This document shows, piece by piece, positions 17,442 through 37,637 of a stretch of 64,000 nt of DNA. Source of the stretch: Desulfobulbus sp. (GTDB lineage: Bacteria > Desulfobacterota > Desulfobulbia > Desulfobulbales > Desulfobulbaceae); NCBI RefSeq assembly GCF_030824455.1, contig NZ_JAVBXR010000015.1, forward strand, positions 1 through 64,000, read 5' to 3'. Within the stretch, counting starts at the first letter, position 1. Each line of letters starts with the position of its first letter. Made by a program: the position numbers and the translations under genes. The notes beneath the pieces were generated by a model. It did no database searches and was not told the DNA's origin. It saw only the letters and a list, made by a program, of their open reading frames with translations.

Positions 17442-18728
17442 ATGGCAAAGCATGAAACGCCTCTATTGGACGAACTGGAAAAAGGTCCATGGCCGAGTTT
17501 CGTCACCGACCTCAAACAGCAGGCTGCAACCAAGCCTGAGTGCTGGGACATTCTTGGCCAGCTTGAGCTTTCGTACAGAGACCGGATCACCCATTGGAAG
17601 CATGGCGGCATCGTCGGTGTTTTCGGATACGGCGGCGGCATCGTTGGTCGTTATTCTGACGTGCCGAAACAGTTTCCCGGCGTAGAGCACTTCCACACCG
17701 TTCGTATTGCCCAGCCCTCTGGTCTGTACTACTCCACCGAGAACCTTCGCGCCCTGATGAATCTGTGGGAGAAATACGGTTCCGGCGTTACCAACTTCCA
17801 TGGCTCCACCGGCGACATGATCTTCCTCGGCACCCGCACCGAGAATCTTGAGCCCCTGTTCTGGGATCTGACCCATGACCTGAAGCAGGATCTTGGCGGC
17901 TCCGGCTCCAACCTGCGTACTCCTGCCTGCTGTTTGGGCGAATCCCGTTGCGAGTGGGCCTGTTATGACGCTCAGGAAGTATGCAACAGCCTGACCCAGC
18001 GCTATCAGGACGAGATCCATCGTCCGGCCTTCCCGTACAAATTTAAGTTCAAATTCTCTGCATGTCCGAACGACTGCGTTGCCGCCATCGCCCGTTCCGA
18101 CTTTGCTGTTATCGGCACCTGGAAAGACAACATCCGCATCGATCAGGCCGCGGTGAAGAAATACATCGCCTGCGACGCTGAGTATCCGGCCAACGGCGGT
18201 GCGCACAAAGGCAAAGACTGGGGCAAATTCGACATCGAGAAAGAGGTTGTCGCCCTGTGCCCGACCCAGTGTATGTGGATGGAAGGCGGCGAGCTGAAAA
18301 TCGACGACACTGAGTGCACCCGTTGCATGCATTGCATCAACGTCATGCCTCGCGCTCTTCGTCCTGGCGCACAGAAAGGCGCATCCATCTGTATTGGCGC
18401 AAAAGCCCCGATTCTTGACGGCGCTCAGTTCGCCACCCTGGTTATCCCCTTCATCGAAGTCAACAAAGAGAACGACTTCGAAGACGTGGTTGACGTCATC
18501 GAGAAGGTGTGGGATTGGTGGATGGAAGTGGGCAAGAACCGTGAGCGTGTTGGTGAAACCATGCAGCGCATCGGCCTGCCGACCTTCCTCAAAGTTATGG
18601 AAGTAGAAGCCCTGCCGCAGCACGTTAAAGAGCCGCGTTCCAACCCCTATGTCTTCTGGGCTGAAGAGGAAGTACCTGGTGGCTGGGAGCGTGACGTCGT
18701 TGAATTCAGAAAACGTCACGCCGCCTGA
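17442..18728 (+). CDS. dsrA: Dissimilatory sulfite reductase, alpha subunit
   Basis: Catalytic partner in the DsrAB complex reducing sulfite in the cytoplasm, the last step of sulfate respiration. 428 residues. The sirohaem/[4Fe-4S] ligand set is complete: C164-x5-C170 (CCLGESRC) and C208-x3-C212 (ACPNDC). An inserted ferredoxin domain carries C273 and C277 (CPTQC) and C292, C295 and C298 (CTRCMHC). The ATG at 17442 has AGGAGG upstream. Codon choice is smoother and more AT at third positions than in the neighbours, as expected for a very highly expressed gene. dsrB follows after 52 bases. Confidence 0.98.
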   Translation: MAKHETPLLDELEKGPWPSFVTDLKQQAATKPECWDILGQLELSYRDRITHWKHGGIVGVFGYGGGIVGRYSDVPKQFPGVEHFHTVRIAQPSGLYYSTENLRALMNLWEKYGSGVTNFHGSTGDMIFLGTRTENLEPLFWDLTHDLKQDLGGSGSNLRTPACCLGESRCEWACYDAQEVCNSLTQRYQDEIHRPAFPYKFKFKFSACPNDCVAAIARSDFAVIGTWKDNIRIDQAAVKKYIACDAEYPANGGAHKGKDWGKFDIEKEVVALCPTQCMWMEGGELKIDDTECTRCMHCINVMPRALRPGAQKGASICIGAKAPILDGAQFATLVIPFIEVNKENDFEDVVDVIEKVWDWWMEVGKNRERVGETMQRIGLPTFLKVMEVEALPQHVKEPRSNPYVFWAEEEVPGGWERDVVEFRKRHAA

Positions 18729-18780
18729 TGGGCATCGCCGATATACTCTCAACGAATTTACTATATAAGGAGATATTATA

Positions 18781-19920
18781 ATGGGTTACGATCCGAAAAA
18801 TCCTATGGAAGGTCGGATTACCGACTTGGGACCGCGATACTACGGGGATTTTCTGCCGCCAGTCGTCAAAGAGAACAAAGGCAAATGGCTCTATCATGAG
18901 ATCCTAGAGCCCGGCGTTTTGGTTCACGTGGCCGAGACCGGCGCCAAGGTGTTCACCGTGCGTTGCGGTTCTCCCCGCTTGGTGACTATCAACTATATTC
19001 GCGACATCTGCGACATCGCCGACAAGCATTGCGGCGGTTACCTCCGCTTCACCACCCGGAACAACGTTGAGTTCATGGTGGACAGCCAAGAGAAAGTGGC
19101 AGAGTTGAAGGCCACCATCAAGGGCTACGGCAACAAGTTCCCGATCGGCGGCACCGGCGCCTGTGTGACCAACATCGTTCACACCCAGGGCTGGGTACAC
19201 TGTCATACACCTGCCACCGACGCTTCCGGCCCGGTTAAGGCGGTTATGGATGACCTGTTCGAGTACTTCGGGTCTATGACCTTGCCGGCGCAGGTTCGTA
19301 TTGCTCTGGCCTGCTGCTTGAACATGTGTGGAGCCGTACATGCTTCCGACATCGCCATCCTGGGCATCCATCGTAAACCGCCGATGATCGACGACGCTCG
19401 CGTTACCGGCGTTTGCGAGATTCCGCTGGCGATCGCTTCCTGTCCGTTGGGCGCTGTTAAGCCTGCCAAGGTCATGATCAACGGCGAGGAAGTTAAGTCC
19501 ATCAAAGTTAACGCCGAGCGTTGTATGTTCTGCGGCAACTGCTACACCATGTGCCCGGCCATGCCGTTGGCCGATCCGGAAGGCGACGGTATCGCCATTC
19601 TGGTTGGCGGCAAGGTTTCCAACCGCAGATCAGCGCCGAAGTTCTCCAAGCTGGTTGTGCCGTTCCTGCCGAACACCACCCCGCGTTGGCCTGAAACTGT
19701 CGCCTGTGTGCGTCAGATCCTTGAAGCCTATGCCAAAGATGCTAAGAAATACGAGCGCATTGGCGAGTGGGCAGAGAGAATCGGTTGGGAGAAGTTCTTT
19801 GAGAAGACCGGTCTTCCCTTCACCGAGAAGTCCATCGACGATTATCGTTTGGCATACGACACCTGGCGCACCACCACCCAGTTCAAGTACACCAGTCATA
19901 CTGCCGCATACACCAAGTAA
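18781..19920 (+). CDS. dsrB: Dissimilatory sulfite reductase, beta subunit
   Basis: 379 residues, forms the alpha2-beta2 sulfite reductase with DsrA. Cofactor ligands seen: C141 (GWVHCHTP) and C178, C179, C183 (ACCLNMCG), the usual pattern for the active sirohaem site. The ferredoxin-like insertion has [12 protein letters not shown] plus an upstream Cys in [11 protein letters not shown] strong AAGGAG lies before the ATG. It is cotranscribed with dsrA, and a strong hairpin terminator follows immediately, before dsrD. Confidence 0.98.
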
Positions 19921-23194: not shown

Positions 23195-25567
23195 TTACTG
23201 CTCGTTATACACCGACCATTTGCCTGTGGCGGAATCAAACATATAGCTGAGTTCCAACTTGGAGGAGCTTCCCTGGCTCCGTTCCACGCAGGTGAGGGTG
23301 TAGAGCGATTTGCCGTCGATTTTTTTGGCAAAAACCGCTTTGGGTTGGGACAGTTTGGAGCCTCTGAACGTGGGGTAATTGGCGCGGAAAATCTCCTCGA
23401 AGTGTTCTTCAAGCCAGGCGATTTTTTCGATTTGCGCCAGTTGTTCCTGCTGCTGATCAATTTTTGCGCCTACTTTTTGGAGCACGGTTTTTACCGCAGG
23501 GTCGGAAGCGTGGTTGCTGGCGCGGATCAGTTGCTGAATCTCCCGGCTGTGGGTCAACACCCCGGCCCGGTCGCCCTTGCCCTCGGCCACCATCACCATG
23601 TCCTGAATCTGGGCTATCTTCACCATCAACAGCGTCTTTTCGATCTTACTCAACGATTCTCCCAGCATGTTCTCGGTGCTTTCCGGCTCACTGGCTAGGA
23701 GATTGAGCGCGTTTTGGTATTCAACGCCGGCCTGTTCCCAATTTTTTTGCTGATAGGCCTCTCGGGCCGTTGACAGCGTCAGGTACAACCGGGCGTTGAC
23801 CAGGAGTTTGTGCAGGTCCTGGCGCTCTTTGTCGGTGACCAGGCTGGGGTTGGCGTTGATCGCCTGCTGGGCCTGCTCAAGATATTTGATCGTTTCCTGC
23901 CATTGCGATTGGGTAAAGGCTTTTTTGGATTGATCGAGTTCATGGCGGAAGGTGGCGACTGTCAATCGATGGGTGATGTCGCTGGCCGTGCCCAGGGTTT
24001 GAATGTTGGAGGAGAGCGCCAGCGCTTTGCGGTAGGCCGCCGCCGCTTCGTTCCAATTTTTGCCTTGCTCGGCGCGTTCGGCCTGGGCAAGCGTCTGCTG
24101 CAATTCAAGGGATTGAATCACCTCTTTGACGGCTGTTTGTTGCTTGGCCAGATCGTGCTCAGTCGCGTACTTGAGCGCCTGTCGATAGAGGGTCAGGGCG
24201 TCGGCGGTTTTGTTCTGTGCGGCCAGGGATTGCGCCTGTCCGGTAAGCACCGCAAGTTCTTCCTGGGCTGCGGCCATGGCGGTCGAGATGTACTCGCCCT
24301 GATGTAGCACCCGTCCGCGCAGCCCCTCCTGCAAATCGCTGGAGGAAAGAAGCGTCTGGATTTCCTTTTCCAGCGTGTCTTTCCGAAACCGGAGAATGGT
24401 CAGGTCGGCTAACACCGATTTCGCTGATTCCAGGGTTTCCAGGGCCGCGTCGAACTGTTTTTTGTCGATGAGCAACTGTCCCTTGAGCAGATTGGCCTGG
24501 GACTGGCTGAGTGTTTTTTGATCGTTGAAATAGAGGGATGTGGCGCCGATGGAAAGGCCAAGGCACACCGCAACAATCAAAATAGGTTTGAAGGGAATGG
24601 CATTGGCCCAGGCGGCGACGTTGAGACGAGGACGCGGGGGGGGCGGAGCCGGGGCGTTCTCAATCTTCGGGGCGGCGACTTCCTCTTTTTTGGTTGAAAA
24701 ACCGGCGGACTGCGTCAATTGAAAGGATTGTTCAATCCGGGTGCGCAAGGCCTCGGCCCCAGGAGCGTCGGCGGCGATGGCAAGCAGATTGTCCGCCACC
24801 TCCAGGGCCTCGTCAAATTTGGCCATGTCCTCAAGTTGCTCGGCCAACTTGAACAGTTGATCTGTTTTGCGCAGCACCTTGCCAATTTCCTGCTGGACCT
24901 CCTCCCGGTCGGGAAAATCGGCATTTTCCGGCAGGTCGGCGAGACGCTGATTGGCGGTGAAGATTTTATTTTGCGCCACGAGGTTGCGAATATCCGCAAT
25001 CTGTGCGGGATCAACCGGTTTTTCGGGAGCGAGAAAATCGTCGTTTTCAAGGCCCAGCGAGGCAAAGGTGTCGTCAACCAGCGAATCCAGCTCAATGCCT
25101 GTTTCTTCTATATCGGCAATGCTGAGCGAATCTGTGGGCAGTTGATCCTGGTGCCCCCTGTACCAGTCGGCGGCTTCCTGATTGAAGGGATCGTCGAGAT
25201 TGTAGGTGTTGCCGCTGATCATTTCGCCGATGTGCAGCACCAATTCAGGTAGCGAAGGATTTTGTTGCCAGCGGTCCGCGATGCGGATGGCGGCGGGGTC
25301 GAAATCCGGGTGGAAAATAGGGGTCAGCGGTTTGGCGATGGGGGCGAAATGGGGGTAGCCAAAAGGAAGACTGATACGGACGAGGTGGTTCTTGCCGATG
25401 CTGATGTTGTTGTCGGCGTCTTTGAGGAAACCGCGCAGATTGTACTCGATTTCGTAATTGTCCGGCGGCTGCCCCTCGGCCTTGAGAATCGATATATTGG
25501 GATATAATTCGAGAAGCTCTTTGAGTTGCGTGTAGTCTTCAGCAAGTTGCTGTGAACCCATAGCCAT
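23195..25567 (-). CDS. E2/UEV-like domain fused to a membrane-anchored TPR-like protein
   Basis: 790 residues, function unknown. Residues 10-137 read like a ubiquitin-conjugating (UBC) fold: GYPHFAPIAKP (70-80), then FHPDF in place of HPNI (85-89), W100, and a C-terminal helix block ELVLHIGEMISGN...DDPFNQEAADWY (108-136). The catalytic Cys position holds Ile or Arg, so it is UEV-like and inactive as an E2. An acidic linker and helical region follow, then a Pro-rich stretch near 308-314 and one membrane helix at about 328-348. A long helical region with TPR-like repeats comes next, and the last 60 residues may form a small beta domain. The ATG at 25567 has weak ribosome binding support; ATG at 25561 is possible. 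The function of the whole is unknown. Confidence 0.75.
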   Translation of the reverse strand: MAMGSQQLAEDYTQLKELLELYPNISILKAEGQPPDNYEIEYNLRGFLKDADNNISIGKNHLVRISLPFGYPHFAPIAKPLTPIFHPDFDPAAIRIADRWQQNPSLPELVLHIGEMISGNTYNLDDPFNQEAADWYRGHQDQLPTDSLSIADIEETGIELDSLVDDTFASLGLENDDFLAPEKPVDPAQIADIRNLVAQNKIFTANQRLADLPENADFPDREEVQQEIGKVLRKTDQLFKLAEQLEDMAKFDEALEVADNLLAIAADAPGAEALRTRIEQSFQLTQSAGFSTKKEEVAAPKIENAPAPPPPRPRLNVAAWANAIPFKPILIVAVCLGLSIGATSLYFNDQKTLSQSQANLLKGQLLIDKKQFDAALETLESAKSVLADLTILRFRKDTLEKEIQTLLSSSDLQEGLRGRVLHQGEYISTAMAAAQEELAVLTGQAQSLAAQNKTADALTLYRQALKYATEHDLAKQQTAVKEVIQSLELQQTLAQAERAEQGKNWNEAAAAYRKALALSSNIQTLGTASDITHRLTVATFRHELDQSKKAFTQSQWQETIKYLEQAQQAINANPSLVTDKERQDLHKLLVNARLYLTLSTAREAYQQKNWEQAGVEYQNALNLLASEPESTENMLGESLSKIEKTLLMVKIAQIQDMVMVAEGKGDRAGVLTHSREIQQLIRASNHASDPAVKTVLQKVGAKIDQQQEQLAQIEKIAWLEEHFEEIFRANYPTFRGSKLSQPKAVFAKKIDGKSLYTLTCVERSQGSSSKLELSYMFDSATGKWSVYNEQ

Positions 25568-25844
25568 AAAAATAACCTGTGATGTGTGCTATTGATCGAC
25601 GTGGCCGGCAGGGCGGAAGAATGCAATGCGTCTGACCGGGGCTCGGGTGCTGTCGGCAAAGGTTGCAGCAACCATATTATCGAGTACTGTATAGTATTTA
25701 TTCAGTGGAAACAAGCGGGCTTTAACCGGTGAAAGGAAAAAGATGGACGGCCGGGAAGCGGGGCAAGAATCGATTGAGTGAACCAGGATTCACGTGTACA
25801 CTGATGGCAACGCATCAATAGCAGAGTTTAATGTTTGGGGGTAG

Positions 25845-26477
25845 ATGGACAACTTTAAGGCCGCTTTTGAAATCACGCACGTCAGGAATTGCCCCCTGTA
25901 TATGCAAGAGGAATGCTTTCTGCTGACCGACAAGGCGGTGGAATTGCCGCTCGGGCGTTCTTCCTGTCTCATTCTGGTGCGGGAACTGACAGGATTGCTC
26001 TTTGCCCTGTTGCCCCACGCCGCCGGTAATTTCGCCGAACAGCGCAATACTGTCTACACCTGCGGCGGCTGCACGGGACTCATCAAGTTCAAGCTCACCG
26101 ACAAGCCGATCCCGGTCAACGGCGGCAAAAGCGCCGGGGCCTTCAAAGAAAACAGTGATTCTGTGATCAGTGGGCGGATCGAGGCGATCATTCCTGCCGA
26201 ATTGTTGCAGGTGTTTCACATGCATCAGAAGACCGGCAGGCTTATCCTGGAATTTGAAAGCGGTTCGGCGCGGGTGACCTTTCGAGAAGGGGGACTGCTC
26301 GCCGCCCGGTTTGAAGATTTGGACAATCAGGAGGCGATCTATGCAATGCTCTCGGAAAAGAAAGGCACCTTCCACTTCATTCCCGGCCTCCCGGACGCGT
26401 TGATGAAAACGCGCGAGATTGGCGATTTTATGATGATTCTCATGGAAGGGCTGCGTCGGCTCGATGAAGACGAATAG
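25845..26477 (+). CDS. DUF4388 domain protein
   Basis: 210 residues. The C-terminal half (about 105-180) matches the DUF4388 (PatA N-terminus-like) pattern: IPAELLQVFHMHQKTGRLIL, then ARVTFREGGLLAARFEDL and YAMLSEKKGTFHF. Such domains occur in signalling proteins of delta-type bacteria. The N-terminal half holds a CPLYM segment and a CGGC pair but is otherwise unfamiliar. It is divergent from the E2-like gene across 277 bases that show no clear promoter to me, so shared regulation is possible. Confidence 0.75.
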   Translation: MDNFKAAFEITHVRNCPLYMQEECFLLTDKAVELPLGRSSCLILVRELTGLLFALLPHAAGNFAEQRNTVYTCGGCTGLIKFKLTDKPIPVNGGKSAGAFKENSDSVISGRIEAIIPAELLQVFHMHQKTGRLILEFESGSARVTFREGGLLAARFEDLDNQEAIYAMLSEKKGTFHFIPGLPDALMKTREIGDFMMILMEGLRRLDEDE

Positions 26478-34710: not shown

Positions 34711-35679
34711 CTATTCGCTGCAGTTAAGGGGTTGATCAGGGGCCTGGTTGCCAAGGTAATGCTCAACCGACAACTCGGCGACAGCGCCCTCTCCGGCGGC
34801 GTTAACGATTTGCCGGGAGCGTTTGCTGCGGATGTCGCCGGCGGCGTACACGCCGGGAATTGAGGTGGCCATTTCCTCGTCGGTGACGATGAAGCCGGTC
34901 GAATCGGTGTGGAGTTGATCCAGGGGAAGGAGGTCGTTGTTGGGGGCAATGCCAATGAGAACAAAGATGCCGGTCACTTTCAGGGTCGACTGGTCGCCGT
35001 TGTAGTGCTGGAGCAGCAGTTCTTCCACGCCAGCGGTCTTGGTCCCCCGGATTTCGAGGATGCGGGTGTTCCAGAGAAAATCAATCTTCTGATTGCAGAA
35101 CGCCTTTTCTTGAAGGATTTTGGTGGCCCGCAATTCGCTCCGGCGGTGAATGACCGTGACTTTGGCGGCGAATTTGGTCAGGTGCAGAGCTTCCTGAATG
35201 GCGGTGTTGCCGCCGCCGACAACGGCAATTTCCTGGTTGCGGTAAAAGGGGCCGTCGCAGGTGGCGCAGTACGAGACGCCGCGTCCGCTGTATTCATACT
35301 CGCCGGGGATGTCGAGCCGGCGGGGTTTGGCCCCGGTGCAGAGGATGATGGTTTTGGCGGTGAGGATTTCGCCGCTTTCCAAGGTGACCGACTTGACGTC
35401 CCCGGCCAGGTCGAGCGCGGTGATGACGGCGAATTTCTTCTCGAGGCCGAAACGGTCGGCGTGGGCAGTCATCTTGTCCATCAGGTCAAAGCCGGAGACG
35501 CCTTCGGCAAAGCCGGGGTAATTGTCCACCCAATCGGTCACCAGCACCTGCCCGCCTGTGGCGCCTTTTTCGACGAGCAGGACCTTGAGACGTCCGCGGG
35601 CGGCATACAACCCTGCCGTCAGGCCAGCGGGGCCGCCGCCGACGATGATCAGCTGATACTGTGCCTGTTGCATGGTCAT
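34711..35679 (-). CDS. trxB: Thioredoxin reductase
   Basis: FAD enzyme passing electrons from NADPH to thioredoxin, 322 residues. Seen: FAD fold IIVGGGPAGLTAGLYAARG, redox-active CATC in GVSYCATCDGPFYRNQ, NADPH fold VVGGGNTAIQEALHLTKFA and GVYAAGDIRSK. The start is ambiguous between ATG at 35679 and 35673; both follow a weak GGCGG. The order trxA-trxB-bamD on the minus strand places the thioredoxin pair together, 57 to 70 bases apart. Confidence 0.94.
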   Translation of the reverse strand: MTMQQAQYQLIIVGGGPAGLTAGLYAARGRLKVLLVEKGATGGQVLVTDWVDNYPGFAEGVSGFDLMDKMTAHADRFGLEKKFAVITALDLAGDVKSVTLESGEILTAKTIILCTGAKPRRLDIPGEYEYSGRGVSYCATCDGPFYRNQEIAVVGGGNTAIQEALHLTKFAAKVTVIHRRSELRATKILQEKAFCNQKIDFLWNTRILEIRGTKTAGVEELLLQHYNGDQSTLKVTGIFVLIGIAPNNDLLPLDQLHTDSTGFIVTDEEMATSIPGVYAAGDIRSKRSRQIVNAAGEGAVAELSVEHYLGNQAPDQPLNCSE

Positions 35680-35745
35680 TACCGCCAAAAAGAAGGCACG
35701 GTCCCTTATTCAAGCAAACAAGAAACCGTGCCGCGTCAGAAAGAG

Positions 35746-36075
35746 TTAAATGGCTTTTTTGATCAGATCCTGCAATTGGGACTTGCCCACGGCGCCGGTA
35801 ATCTGGTCGACCACTTCGCCGCCTTTAAAGAGAATAAGCGTAGGGATGGCGCGGATGCCAAATTTTCCAGGAGTGGCCGGATTTTCGTCAACATTCATCT
35901 TGGCGATGACGACCTTGCCGTCAAATTCTGCCGCCAACTCGTCGATAACCGGACCAATGGCCTTGCAGGGGCCGCACCACGGAGCCCAAAAATCAACCAG
36001 ACAGGGCAGTGCATTACCAATGACATTGCTCTCAAACTCGCTGTCGGATATGTGAATTACCTTGTCACTTGCCAT
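35746..36075 (-). CDS. trxA: Thioredoxin
   Basis: 109-residue disulfide reductase with the active site WCGPC in FWAPWCGPCKAIGPVIDEL, plus the cis-Pro region GIRAIPTLILFKGGEVV. Begins MASDKVIHISDSEFE. AAGGAG lies about nine bases before the ATG. It is transcribed from the promoter at 36171-36199 and probably continues into trxB. Confidence 0.97.
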   Translation of the reverse strand: MASDKVIHISDSEFESNVIGNALPCLVDFWAPWCGPCKAIGPVIDELAAEFDGKVVIAKMNVDENPATPGKFGIRAIPTLILFKGGEVVDQITGAVGKSQLQDLIKKAI

Positions 36076-36170
36076 CTCGCGTTCTCCTTGTAGGCGTGGA
36101 CCGATGAAAAATTGCTTAAAAAAATATTGAATTCTCGATGGTTATGTAATGGTGAGCTGCATCGGCGGTC

Positions 36171-36199
36171 ATTCTACCTTGCACGCCCAATGGTGACAA
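36171..36199 (-). promoter_or_regulatory. Sigma70-type promoter for trxA
   Basis: On the minus strand: TTGTCA, 17-base spacer, TAGAAT. It starts about 100 bases upstream of the trxA ATG. Confidence 0.6.
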
Positions 36200-36259
36200 G
36201 AAAAAATTGACATCATTGGGGGGCTGTCAAGGCGGATGTGTTTGGAATTTTTTTTGCTT

Positions 36260-36289
36260 TTGACATCTGAAAAACCCCCGTGCTATAAA
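36260..36289 (+). promoter_or_regulatory. Sigma70-type promoter for hemL
   Basis: TTGACA (36260-36265), 18-base spacer, TATAAA (36284-36289), 58 bases upstream of the hemL ATG. Confidence 0.65.
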
Positions 36290-36347
36290 GGGGCCTTCGT
36301 ATCGGATCAGCATTGAACAGACCATTGCAGTCACAACGAGGAAACTG

Positions 36348-37637
36348 ATGAAAACGGATCGATCAGCGCAATTGTTTCTCGAGGCGAAAACCCTTATGCC
36401 GGGAGGCGTCAACTCGCCGGTCAGGGCCTGCCGTTCGGTTGGCTGCGAGCCGTTGTTTGTGCGCAAGGCCTCGGGCTGCATGCTCACCGACGTCGACGGC
36501 AATGAATTTATCGACTTTGTCGGGTCCTGGGGGCCTATGATCCTGGGCCATTCTCATCCCGAGGTGGTGGAGGCGATTTGCCGGACCGCCGCCGACGGCA
36601 CCAGTTTTGGCGCGCCCTCGCCCTTGGAGGTGGAACTCGCGGCCATGGTCTGCGACGCGGTGCCTTCGATTGAGAAGGTGCGATTCGTCAACTCCGGAAC
36701 CGAGGCCACCATGAGCGCCGTGCGTCTGGCGCGTGGCTACACGGGCCGCAAGGCGGTGGTGAAATTCGACGGCTGCTATCACGGTCACGCCGATTCCTTT
36801 CTGGTCAAGGCAGGCTCGGGGGTGATTACCCTTGGCATCCCCGGCAGCCCCGGCGTGCCCGAGGACATCGTCAAAAACACCCTATCCATTCCCTATAATA
36901 ACGAGGCGGTGTTAGAGGAGACCTTGCGGAATGCAAGCCTGGACATCGCCTGCGTCATTGTCGAGCCGGTGGCCGGCAACATGGGAGTGGTTGCGCCTGC
37001 GCAAAATTTTCTGCGCAGATTGCGCGAATTGACCCGTGAACTGGGGATTGTGCTGATTTTTGACGAGGTCATTACCGGGTTTCGTCTGGCTCTGGGCGGG
37101 GCGCAGGAACGGTTTGGGGTTATCCCGGATCTGACCTGCCTGGGCAAGATTATCGGCGGCGGTTTGCCGGTGGGGGCCTACGGCGGCAAGCGCGAGTTAA
37201 TGGAAATGATCGCCCCCGACGGGCCAGTGTACCAGGCCGGCACCCTTTCCGGCAACCCCCTGGCGATGGCGGCGGGGCTGGCCATGTTGAACATTGTCAA
37301 ACGACCGGGATTTTATGCCGAGCTGGAAGAAAAAAGCGCCTGGTTCGGCGACGAAATGGAGAAATTGGCGGCAGCCGCTCCGGTCCCGATTGTCCTCAAC
37401 CGCATCGGGTCGCTGATGACCTGCTTCTTTACCGACAAGCCGATCACGGATTTCGAGTCGGCCCTGCAGGCGAACACTGCGTTGTACGGTCAATACTATC
37501 GGCATATGCTGGCCGGCGGGGTGTGGCTGGCGCCCTCGCAGTTTGAGGCGGCCTTTATATCCGCCGCGCATGACCGCGCGCACCTGGAACAGGCGCTGCG
37601 CGTGACTGAATCGTCATTCAAAAAATTGATGGTTTAA
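36348..37637 (+). CDS. hemL: Glutamate-1-semialdehyde 2,1-aminomutase
   Basis: PLP enzyme making 5-aminolevulinate for haem, sirohaem and cobalamin by the C5 pathway, 429 residues. Seen: LMPGGVNSPVRACRSVG, FVNSGTEATMSAVRLARG, KFDGCYHGHADSFLVKAGSG, FDEVITGFRLALGGAQ and the PLP-Lys region CLGKIIGGGLPVGAYGG. The ATG follows a GAGGAAAC sequence. Sirohaem made from this pathway serves DsrAB; this link is metabolic, not operonic. The ATP synthase F0 genes follow after about 80 bases. Confidence 0.96.
   Translation: MKTDRSAQLFLEAKTLMPGGVNSPVRACRSVGCEPLFVRKASGCMLTDVDGNEFIDFVGSWGPMILGHSHPEVVEAICRTAADGTSFGAPSPLEVELAAMVCDAVPSIEKVRFVNSGTEATMSAVRLARGYTGRKAVVKFDGCYHGHADSFLVKAGSGVITLGIPGSPGVPEDIVKNTLSIPYNNEAVLEETLRNASLDIACVIVEPVAGNMGVVAPAQNFLRRLRELTRELGIVLIFDEVITGFRLALGGAQERFGVIPDLTCLGKIIGGGLPVGAYGGKRELMEMIAPDGPVYQAGTLSGNPLAMAAGLAMLNIVKRPGFYAELEEKSAWFGDEMEKLAAAAPVPIVLNRIGSLMTCFFTDKPITDFESALQANTALYGQYYRHMLAGGVWLAPSQFEAAFISAAHDRAHLEQALRVTESSFKKLMV

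Follow-up and report, generated by a model that had tools for sequence, protein, structure and literature searches.

A membrane-anchored E2-like protein family of one bacterial order in which the catalytic cysteine is recurrently absent

Most of what is known of bacterial E2-like proteins comes from operons, frequently mobile ones, that also hold genes for E1, Ubl or JAB. Both E2 operons and inactive E2/RWD-like domains of bacteria have already been described (PMC1779556). A description of a membrane-TPR E2-like family was not found in the literature that we searched, though an earlier mention is possible. Here, we characterize such a gene in a 64,000-nucleotide stretch of Desulfobulbus sp. 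DNA, referred to as the window. A sequence-only reading, which gave no strand, had proposed an E2-like domain fused to a membrane helical-repeat protein. The open reading frame is real and comprises 790 codons on the minus strand (25567-23195). The encoded protein is laid out as E2-like domain, linker/TPR, membrane helix, predicted periplasmic helical repeats and C-terminal beta domain. The locus has the following features:

23195..25567, minus strand: whole gene, 790 aa (open reading frame; homologues in about 115 of 194 genomes of the order)
25118..25567, minus strand: UBC/E2-like domain, residues 1-150, predicted cytoplasmic (Pfam, PDB-sequence and profile matches; best-conserved segment of the protein)
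25304..25312, minus strand: HPD, residues 86-88, counterpart of the E2 HPN motif (alignments)
25283..25285, minus strand: Arg95 at the position of the E2 catalytic cysteine (Cys in 51 of 107 homologous domains)
24755..24856, minus strand: TPR-like segment, residues 238-271, predicted cytoplasmic (TPR_14 match)
24527..24601, minus strand: single membrane helix, residues 323-347, predicted N-in/C-out (hydropathy 2.19 and family charge bias)
23468..24520, minus strand: helical/TPR-like repeats, residues 350-700, predicted periplasmic (TPR_2/TPR_11 matches, helical model, Foldseek)
23198..23467, minus strand: C-terminal domain, residues 701-790, helices then four strands (model; conservation higher than that of the repeats)
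25568..25844, no strand: intergenic region between the divergent genes (spacing across 90 genomes)
25845..26477, plus strand: divergent partner gene, 210 aa (N-terminal domain with four conserved Cys, then DUF4388)

Elsewhere in the window, a dsrA/dsrB-like gene pair (dissimilatory sulfite reductase subunits; 17442-19920, plus strand) was recognized by eye and fits a sulfate-reducing host.

The motif residues on which a UBC-type domain had been proposed are all at the claimed places (YP at 71-72, HPD at 86-88, W100 and DDPFNQEAADWY at 125-136), and matches to E2s cover residues about 10-145, spanning at the sequence level the beta-meander, the active-site loop and the following helix. A phmmer search with residues 1-150 against PDB sequences gave UBE2C as best match (3.9e-6) and E2s only among the matches listed, while a profile of 26 relatives reached 1.1e-8 against PDB E2s. 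In this 26-sequence profile alignment, the catalytic Cys of UBE2C aligns with column 95. Pfam UQ_con matched the window protein with E=1.9e-4 and 21.5 bits, below the curated cut-off of 27, which was passed by two distant homologues (29.2 and 30.4 bits), one of them from an E1-JAB operon. Judged by its sequence, the segment of residues about 10-145 is a genuine UBC/E2-fold domain. The subthreshold single-protein score would also fit a different alpha/beta fold with coincidental motifs, as would the structure model: AlphaFold (two sequences only) modelled the N-terminal domain with pLDDT 43 as a helix, three strands and then helices, for which the top PDB match in Foldseek was the E2 UbcH5b at a non-significant E=0.6, followed lower down by a Tsg101 UEV and GCN2 RWD structures. 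Given the PDB E2 matches (4e-6 and 1e-8) with the Cys in register, and homologues above the Pfam cut-off including one in an E1-JAB operon, we regard such a chance resemblance as extremely improbable.

To follow the family, 194 genomes of the host's order were sampled. A match was obtained in 122, of which 115 were kept after leaving out six genomes without a UBC domain on profile re-search and one with a weak match only (G155). The fusion to a membrane scaffold had been called unusual; the gene is in fact conserved across the order and not an isolated oddity. Scanning genome_contigs yielded one relative only, a Desulfobulbus MAG, and viral contigs scanned with the domain profile gave no match. 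Outside the order, within the rest of 395 genomes sampled from the phylum, two genomes had a match. The first (G522, locus L079) encodes a 361-aa Cys-bearing E2 in a same-strand run with ThiF/E1, JAB, a Prok-RING_1 membrane protein and an FHA protein, and the second (G218, locus L080) a 1054-aa Cys-less E2-like/TPR/TM fusion. The run at L079 (2904-13217) comprises subtilisin-like, AAA, DnaJ-like, E2, Prok-RING_1, FHA, JAB and E1 genes on the same strand and is apparently a near-complete bacterial ubiquitin-like locus, in which no Ubl gene was identified. A gene tree computed with column 95 left out follows the host families, and the E2-like gene is vertically inherited.

As stated by the sequence-only reading, the window protein has no catalytic Cys. 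Position 95 is Arg, and the only cysteines among its 790 residues are 335, inside the membrane helix, and 760, leaving none in the N-terminal domain. Among 107 distinct domains, 51 have C at position 95, 42 have R and 7 have K, the remaining 7 having A, A, S, H, Y, D and P. In Cys-bearing relatives the Cys (HPDFDPAAICIGDFW) coincides exactly with the catalytic position of E2s, which in the window protein is occupied by Arg95. On the gene tree (column 95 left out), Cys and non-Cys states must have interchanged at least 7 times, a count that by itself gives no direction. In the window's family (f1) every sampled member is Cys-less, and separate Cys-less lineages occur in family f3 (a Lys clade, and Arg in genus g36) and in family f12 (Arg in L112, His in L054 and Tyr in L116), where 42 of 45 main-copy rows keep Cys95. 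Cys is likely the ancestral state, since it is the E2 catalytic residue and is present in the operon E2 of L079; the direction from Cys to Arg/Lys thus depends on homology and one Cys-bearing outgroup, the second outgroup being Cys-less and both joined by long branches. If Cys is ancestral, this is a degenerate bacterial E2-like domain that lost its Cys repeatedly. Two further variants were observed. A same-genus clade without divergent partner (G011, G040 and G184; L035, L032 and L134) stands on a long branch and differs in its active-site loop, with Ala or Ser at 95, and a paralogous E2-like copy of 532 aa with Pro at 95 (L047, 2394-6920) lies directly downstream of clpS-/clpA-like genes.

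The UBC core is the best-conserved segment in both the Cys-bearing and the Cys-less group, with 67% within f1, 52% within the Cys-bearing group and 45% between groups, compared with 44%, 27% and 19% for the predicted periplasmic repeats. Within residues 60-149, 25 positions hold one and the same, nearly invariant residue in both groups, many of them near the former active site; among positions nearly fixed in each group only 95 (R/C) and 97 (A/G) differ. Conservation of the core in the Cys-less family together with these shared positions indicates that the surface is under selection even without the Cys.

The window protein had further been likened to UEV proteins. It shares with them a UBC domain without Cys, but the more specific likeness was not supported. 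Its nearest relatives are bacterial E2-like domains that carry the Cys and share its architecture, along with the E2 of an E1-JAB-RING operon, and the PDB matches listed are all E2s, so that no closer sequence relation to UEVs than to E2s was found. The domain has also retained two features that UEVs generally lack, namely the HP(D) motif and a DDPFN..A..WY helix of the E2 type. Of the hallmarks of an active E2, both the catalytic Cys after the HPN motif (Arg95 here) and the HPN asparagine (HPD here) are absent. Like the window protein, nearly all members in the order carry HPD, and HPN occurs in L079 and in L080. From the Cys-bearing relatives, the kept motif and helix and the E2 matches, the domain is E2-like and most likely underwent secondary loss of the Cys. 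This loss in the host and in several relatives makes a binding module, rather than an enzyme, the probable role, as the sequence-only reading had supposed.

A single membrane helix was predicted at about residues 323-347, in agreement with the earlier claim. Across the family, the 15 residues flanking it hold on average 3.71 K/R on the N-terminal side vs 2.07 on the other, with an excess on the N-terminal side in 47 of 59 members and equal numbers in 7. Based on this positive-inside bias, the UBC domain would be cytoplasmic and the C-terminal repeats periplasmic. The long helical repeat that had been placed after the membrane helix was borne out as to its helical repeats, with the refinement that weak TPR matches occur on both sides of the helix (238-271, 441-468 and 503-521), each below its curated cut-off and the best being TPR_2 at 8.5e-6 (Pfam). 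A model of the part after the helix shows helical repeats followed by a four-strand domain, with a mean pLDDT of 75.5 and values mostly of 75-92 past about the first 90 residues. TPR proteins dominate the Foldseek matches of this model with low TM-scores, which therefore support the fold class only. The C-terminal domain (701-790) is better conserved than the repeats.

It had also been noted that no ubiquitin genes are nearby, and E1, Ubl and JAB genes are indeed absent from the window. In the window's genome, JAB-like matches coincide with RadC genes only, and ThiS-type Ubls and ThiF, of the cofactor-pathway type, are found on contigs C32 and C56; a long frame holds one additional sub-threshold ThiS match. 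In the order's other genomes, JAB scores are for the most part at RadC level only. In the neighbourhoods compared across the order, no E1, Ubl or JAB adjoining the E2-like gene was recognized; linked E1/JAB genes were found only at the distant homologue L079. Two clusters unlinked to the E2-like gene were seen: three JAB-family matches within 3 kb, unusual for the genomes examined (G130 contig C1, about 3177484-3180494), and adjacent JAB and ThiF genes (L089; G026 C79, about 35259-36453), possibly a separate Ubl system; the E2-like protein of the latter genome carries Lys95.

Proteolysis genes adjoin some copies. At L045 (856-3321, family f3), the neighbour combines a Clp-like AAA domain, an FtsH-like AAA domain and peptidase M41 and resembles FtsH, yet scores far below the FtsH cut-off; genes of the same similarity cluster adjoin the E2-like gene in L049, L050, L053 and L055. 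We did not take these genes as a partner because one cluster lumped differing gene sets (FtsH/M41-like, ClpB-like and ClpS-ClpA-like). A defence role is likewise not favoured, given that no PADLOC model matches the E2-like protein, inheritance is vertical and synteny is of the housekeeping kind.

These neighbourhoods bear on the main rival explanation, according to which the Cys-bearing relatives are active E2s that take a Ubl from a housekeeping E1 of the MoeB/ThiF type and modify membrane-proximal targets, the window protein being a degenerate or regulatory remnant. The Cys exactly in E2 register with the HP(D/N) motif would fit, as would its retention in 42 of the 45 f12 rows, the distant homologue in an E1-JAB-RING operon, an E2 in an E1-JAB cluster on a Crinalium plasmid and the proteolysis genes beside some copies. 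However, nearly all Cys-bearing genomes examined have only weak, RadC-level JAB matches, no E1 or Ubl was recognized adjoining the gene, HPD replaces HPN, and the Cys is repeatedly absent from otherwise intact proteins. We consider this explanation unlikely.

The divergent partner (25845-26477) carries its four conserved Cys in CPLY, CLIL and CxxC, plus DUF4388. Long orthologues have a cNMP-binding domain between the N-terminal domain and DUF4388, which the window's partner lacks; this domain was identified by Pfam in one long orthologue (P0007) and judged by length in the others. Membership of the partner's N-terminus in TIGR04076 was unsupported by NCBIfam. In 90 of 115 genomes the partner lies less than 0.8 kb from the E2-like gene (spacing of matched parts 161-790 nt), while 25 genomes have the E2-like gene without adjacent partner. 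Strong partner orthologues were found in none of the genomes of the order sample that lack the E2-like gene. Housekeeping synteny alone could keep the two divergent genes together.

The long, cNMP form of the partner accompanies 44 of 50 Cys95 rows vs 2 of 55 non-Cys rows. Just 3-4 independent pairs are informative, almost all in the same direction (sign-test p 0.25), so the association is suggestive and not significant after correction for phylogeny. Among f12 main copies, all three Cys-less ones are without partner vs 5 of 42 Cys-bearing ones (Fisher p=0.004, relatedness ignored). One conceivable reading of this pattern is a thiol/redox sensor site formed by Cys95 and Cys78, not catalytic and read out by the cNMP-binding partner. 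Cys78 is present in 18 of 18 Cys95 alignment rows, the hosts are presumably anaerobes, and the coincidence of Cys95 with the cNMP form points the same way. Since the Lys and His variants keep Cys78 while having no Cys95, and the association comes down to those few pairs, this sensor is quite improbable.

Taken together, we think it probable, if by no means certain, that the window protein is a bitopic inner-membrane scaffold or receptor with a catalytically dead E2-like cytoplasmic end. With repeated loss of the Cys, thioester chemistry would have been lost, and the conserved former active-site face may bind a cytosolic protein non-covalently, with the divergent partner, or a signalling protein working with it, as the favoured ligand. 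The periplasmic repeats and C-terminal domain may in turn bind an envelope protein, and the molecule would then couple a cytoplasmic signalling complex to the envelope. A wider reading, which we hold only tentatively and rate as doubtful, is that of an E2-derived inner-membrane signalling module of an order, with switchable chemistry and no dedicated E1, Ubl or JAB, Cys-bearing where the partner is a cyclic-nucleotide sensor and Cys-less where that sensor was lost. For the scaffold or receptor, the divergent gene is a concrete candidate partner.

Compared with known systems, this gene is inherited vertically in a bacterial order and its product is anchored in the membrane, and inside one family the catalytic Cys is recurrently missing. 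The E2s of E1/E2/JAB(/RING) operons (Iyer et al. 2006, PMC1779556) share the UBC fold, the HP motif and, in the Cys-bearing relatives, the Cys, and over 144 aa the L079 E2 shares 37% identity with one Cys-bearing family member. Operon E2s are clustered with E1, JAB or Ubl genes whereas none are adjacent here, and here the domain is fused to TM and TPR segments, has HPD in place of HPN and often has no Cys. The inactive E2/RWD-like domains found near polyUbl operons (PMC1779556, row 6e) are likewise Cys-less E2 folds and probable Ubl or protein binders, but they lie beside or are fused to Ubl genes, whereas the window protein is a membrane protein encoded on the chromosome and has Cys-bearing proteins among its close relatives. 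BilB, the E2 of the Bil operon (PMC11354881), shares the bacterial E2 fold and differs in its active-site motif CEHH and its operon context. The natural series of Cys, Arg, Lys, His and Tyr in the same scaffold may illustrate how an E2 becomes a binding module, the step behind eukaryotic UEV and RWD domains. Eukaryotic UEVs (UBE2V/Mms2, Tsg101) are also Cys-less binding modules of the UBC fold; unlike them, the window domain has retained both its HP(D) motif and its C-terminal E2 helix, and absence of the Cys recurs within one bacterial family that has Cys-bearing members too.
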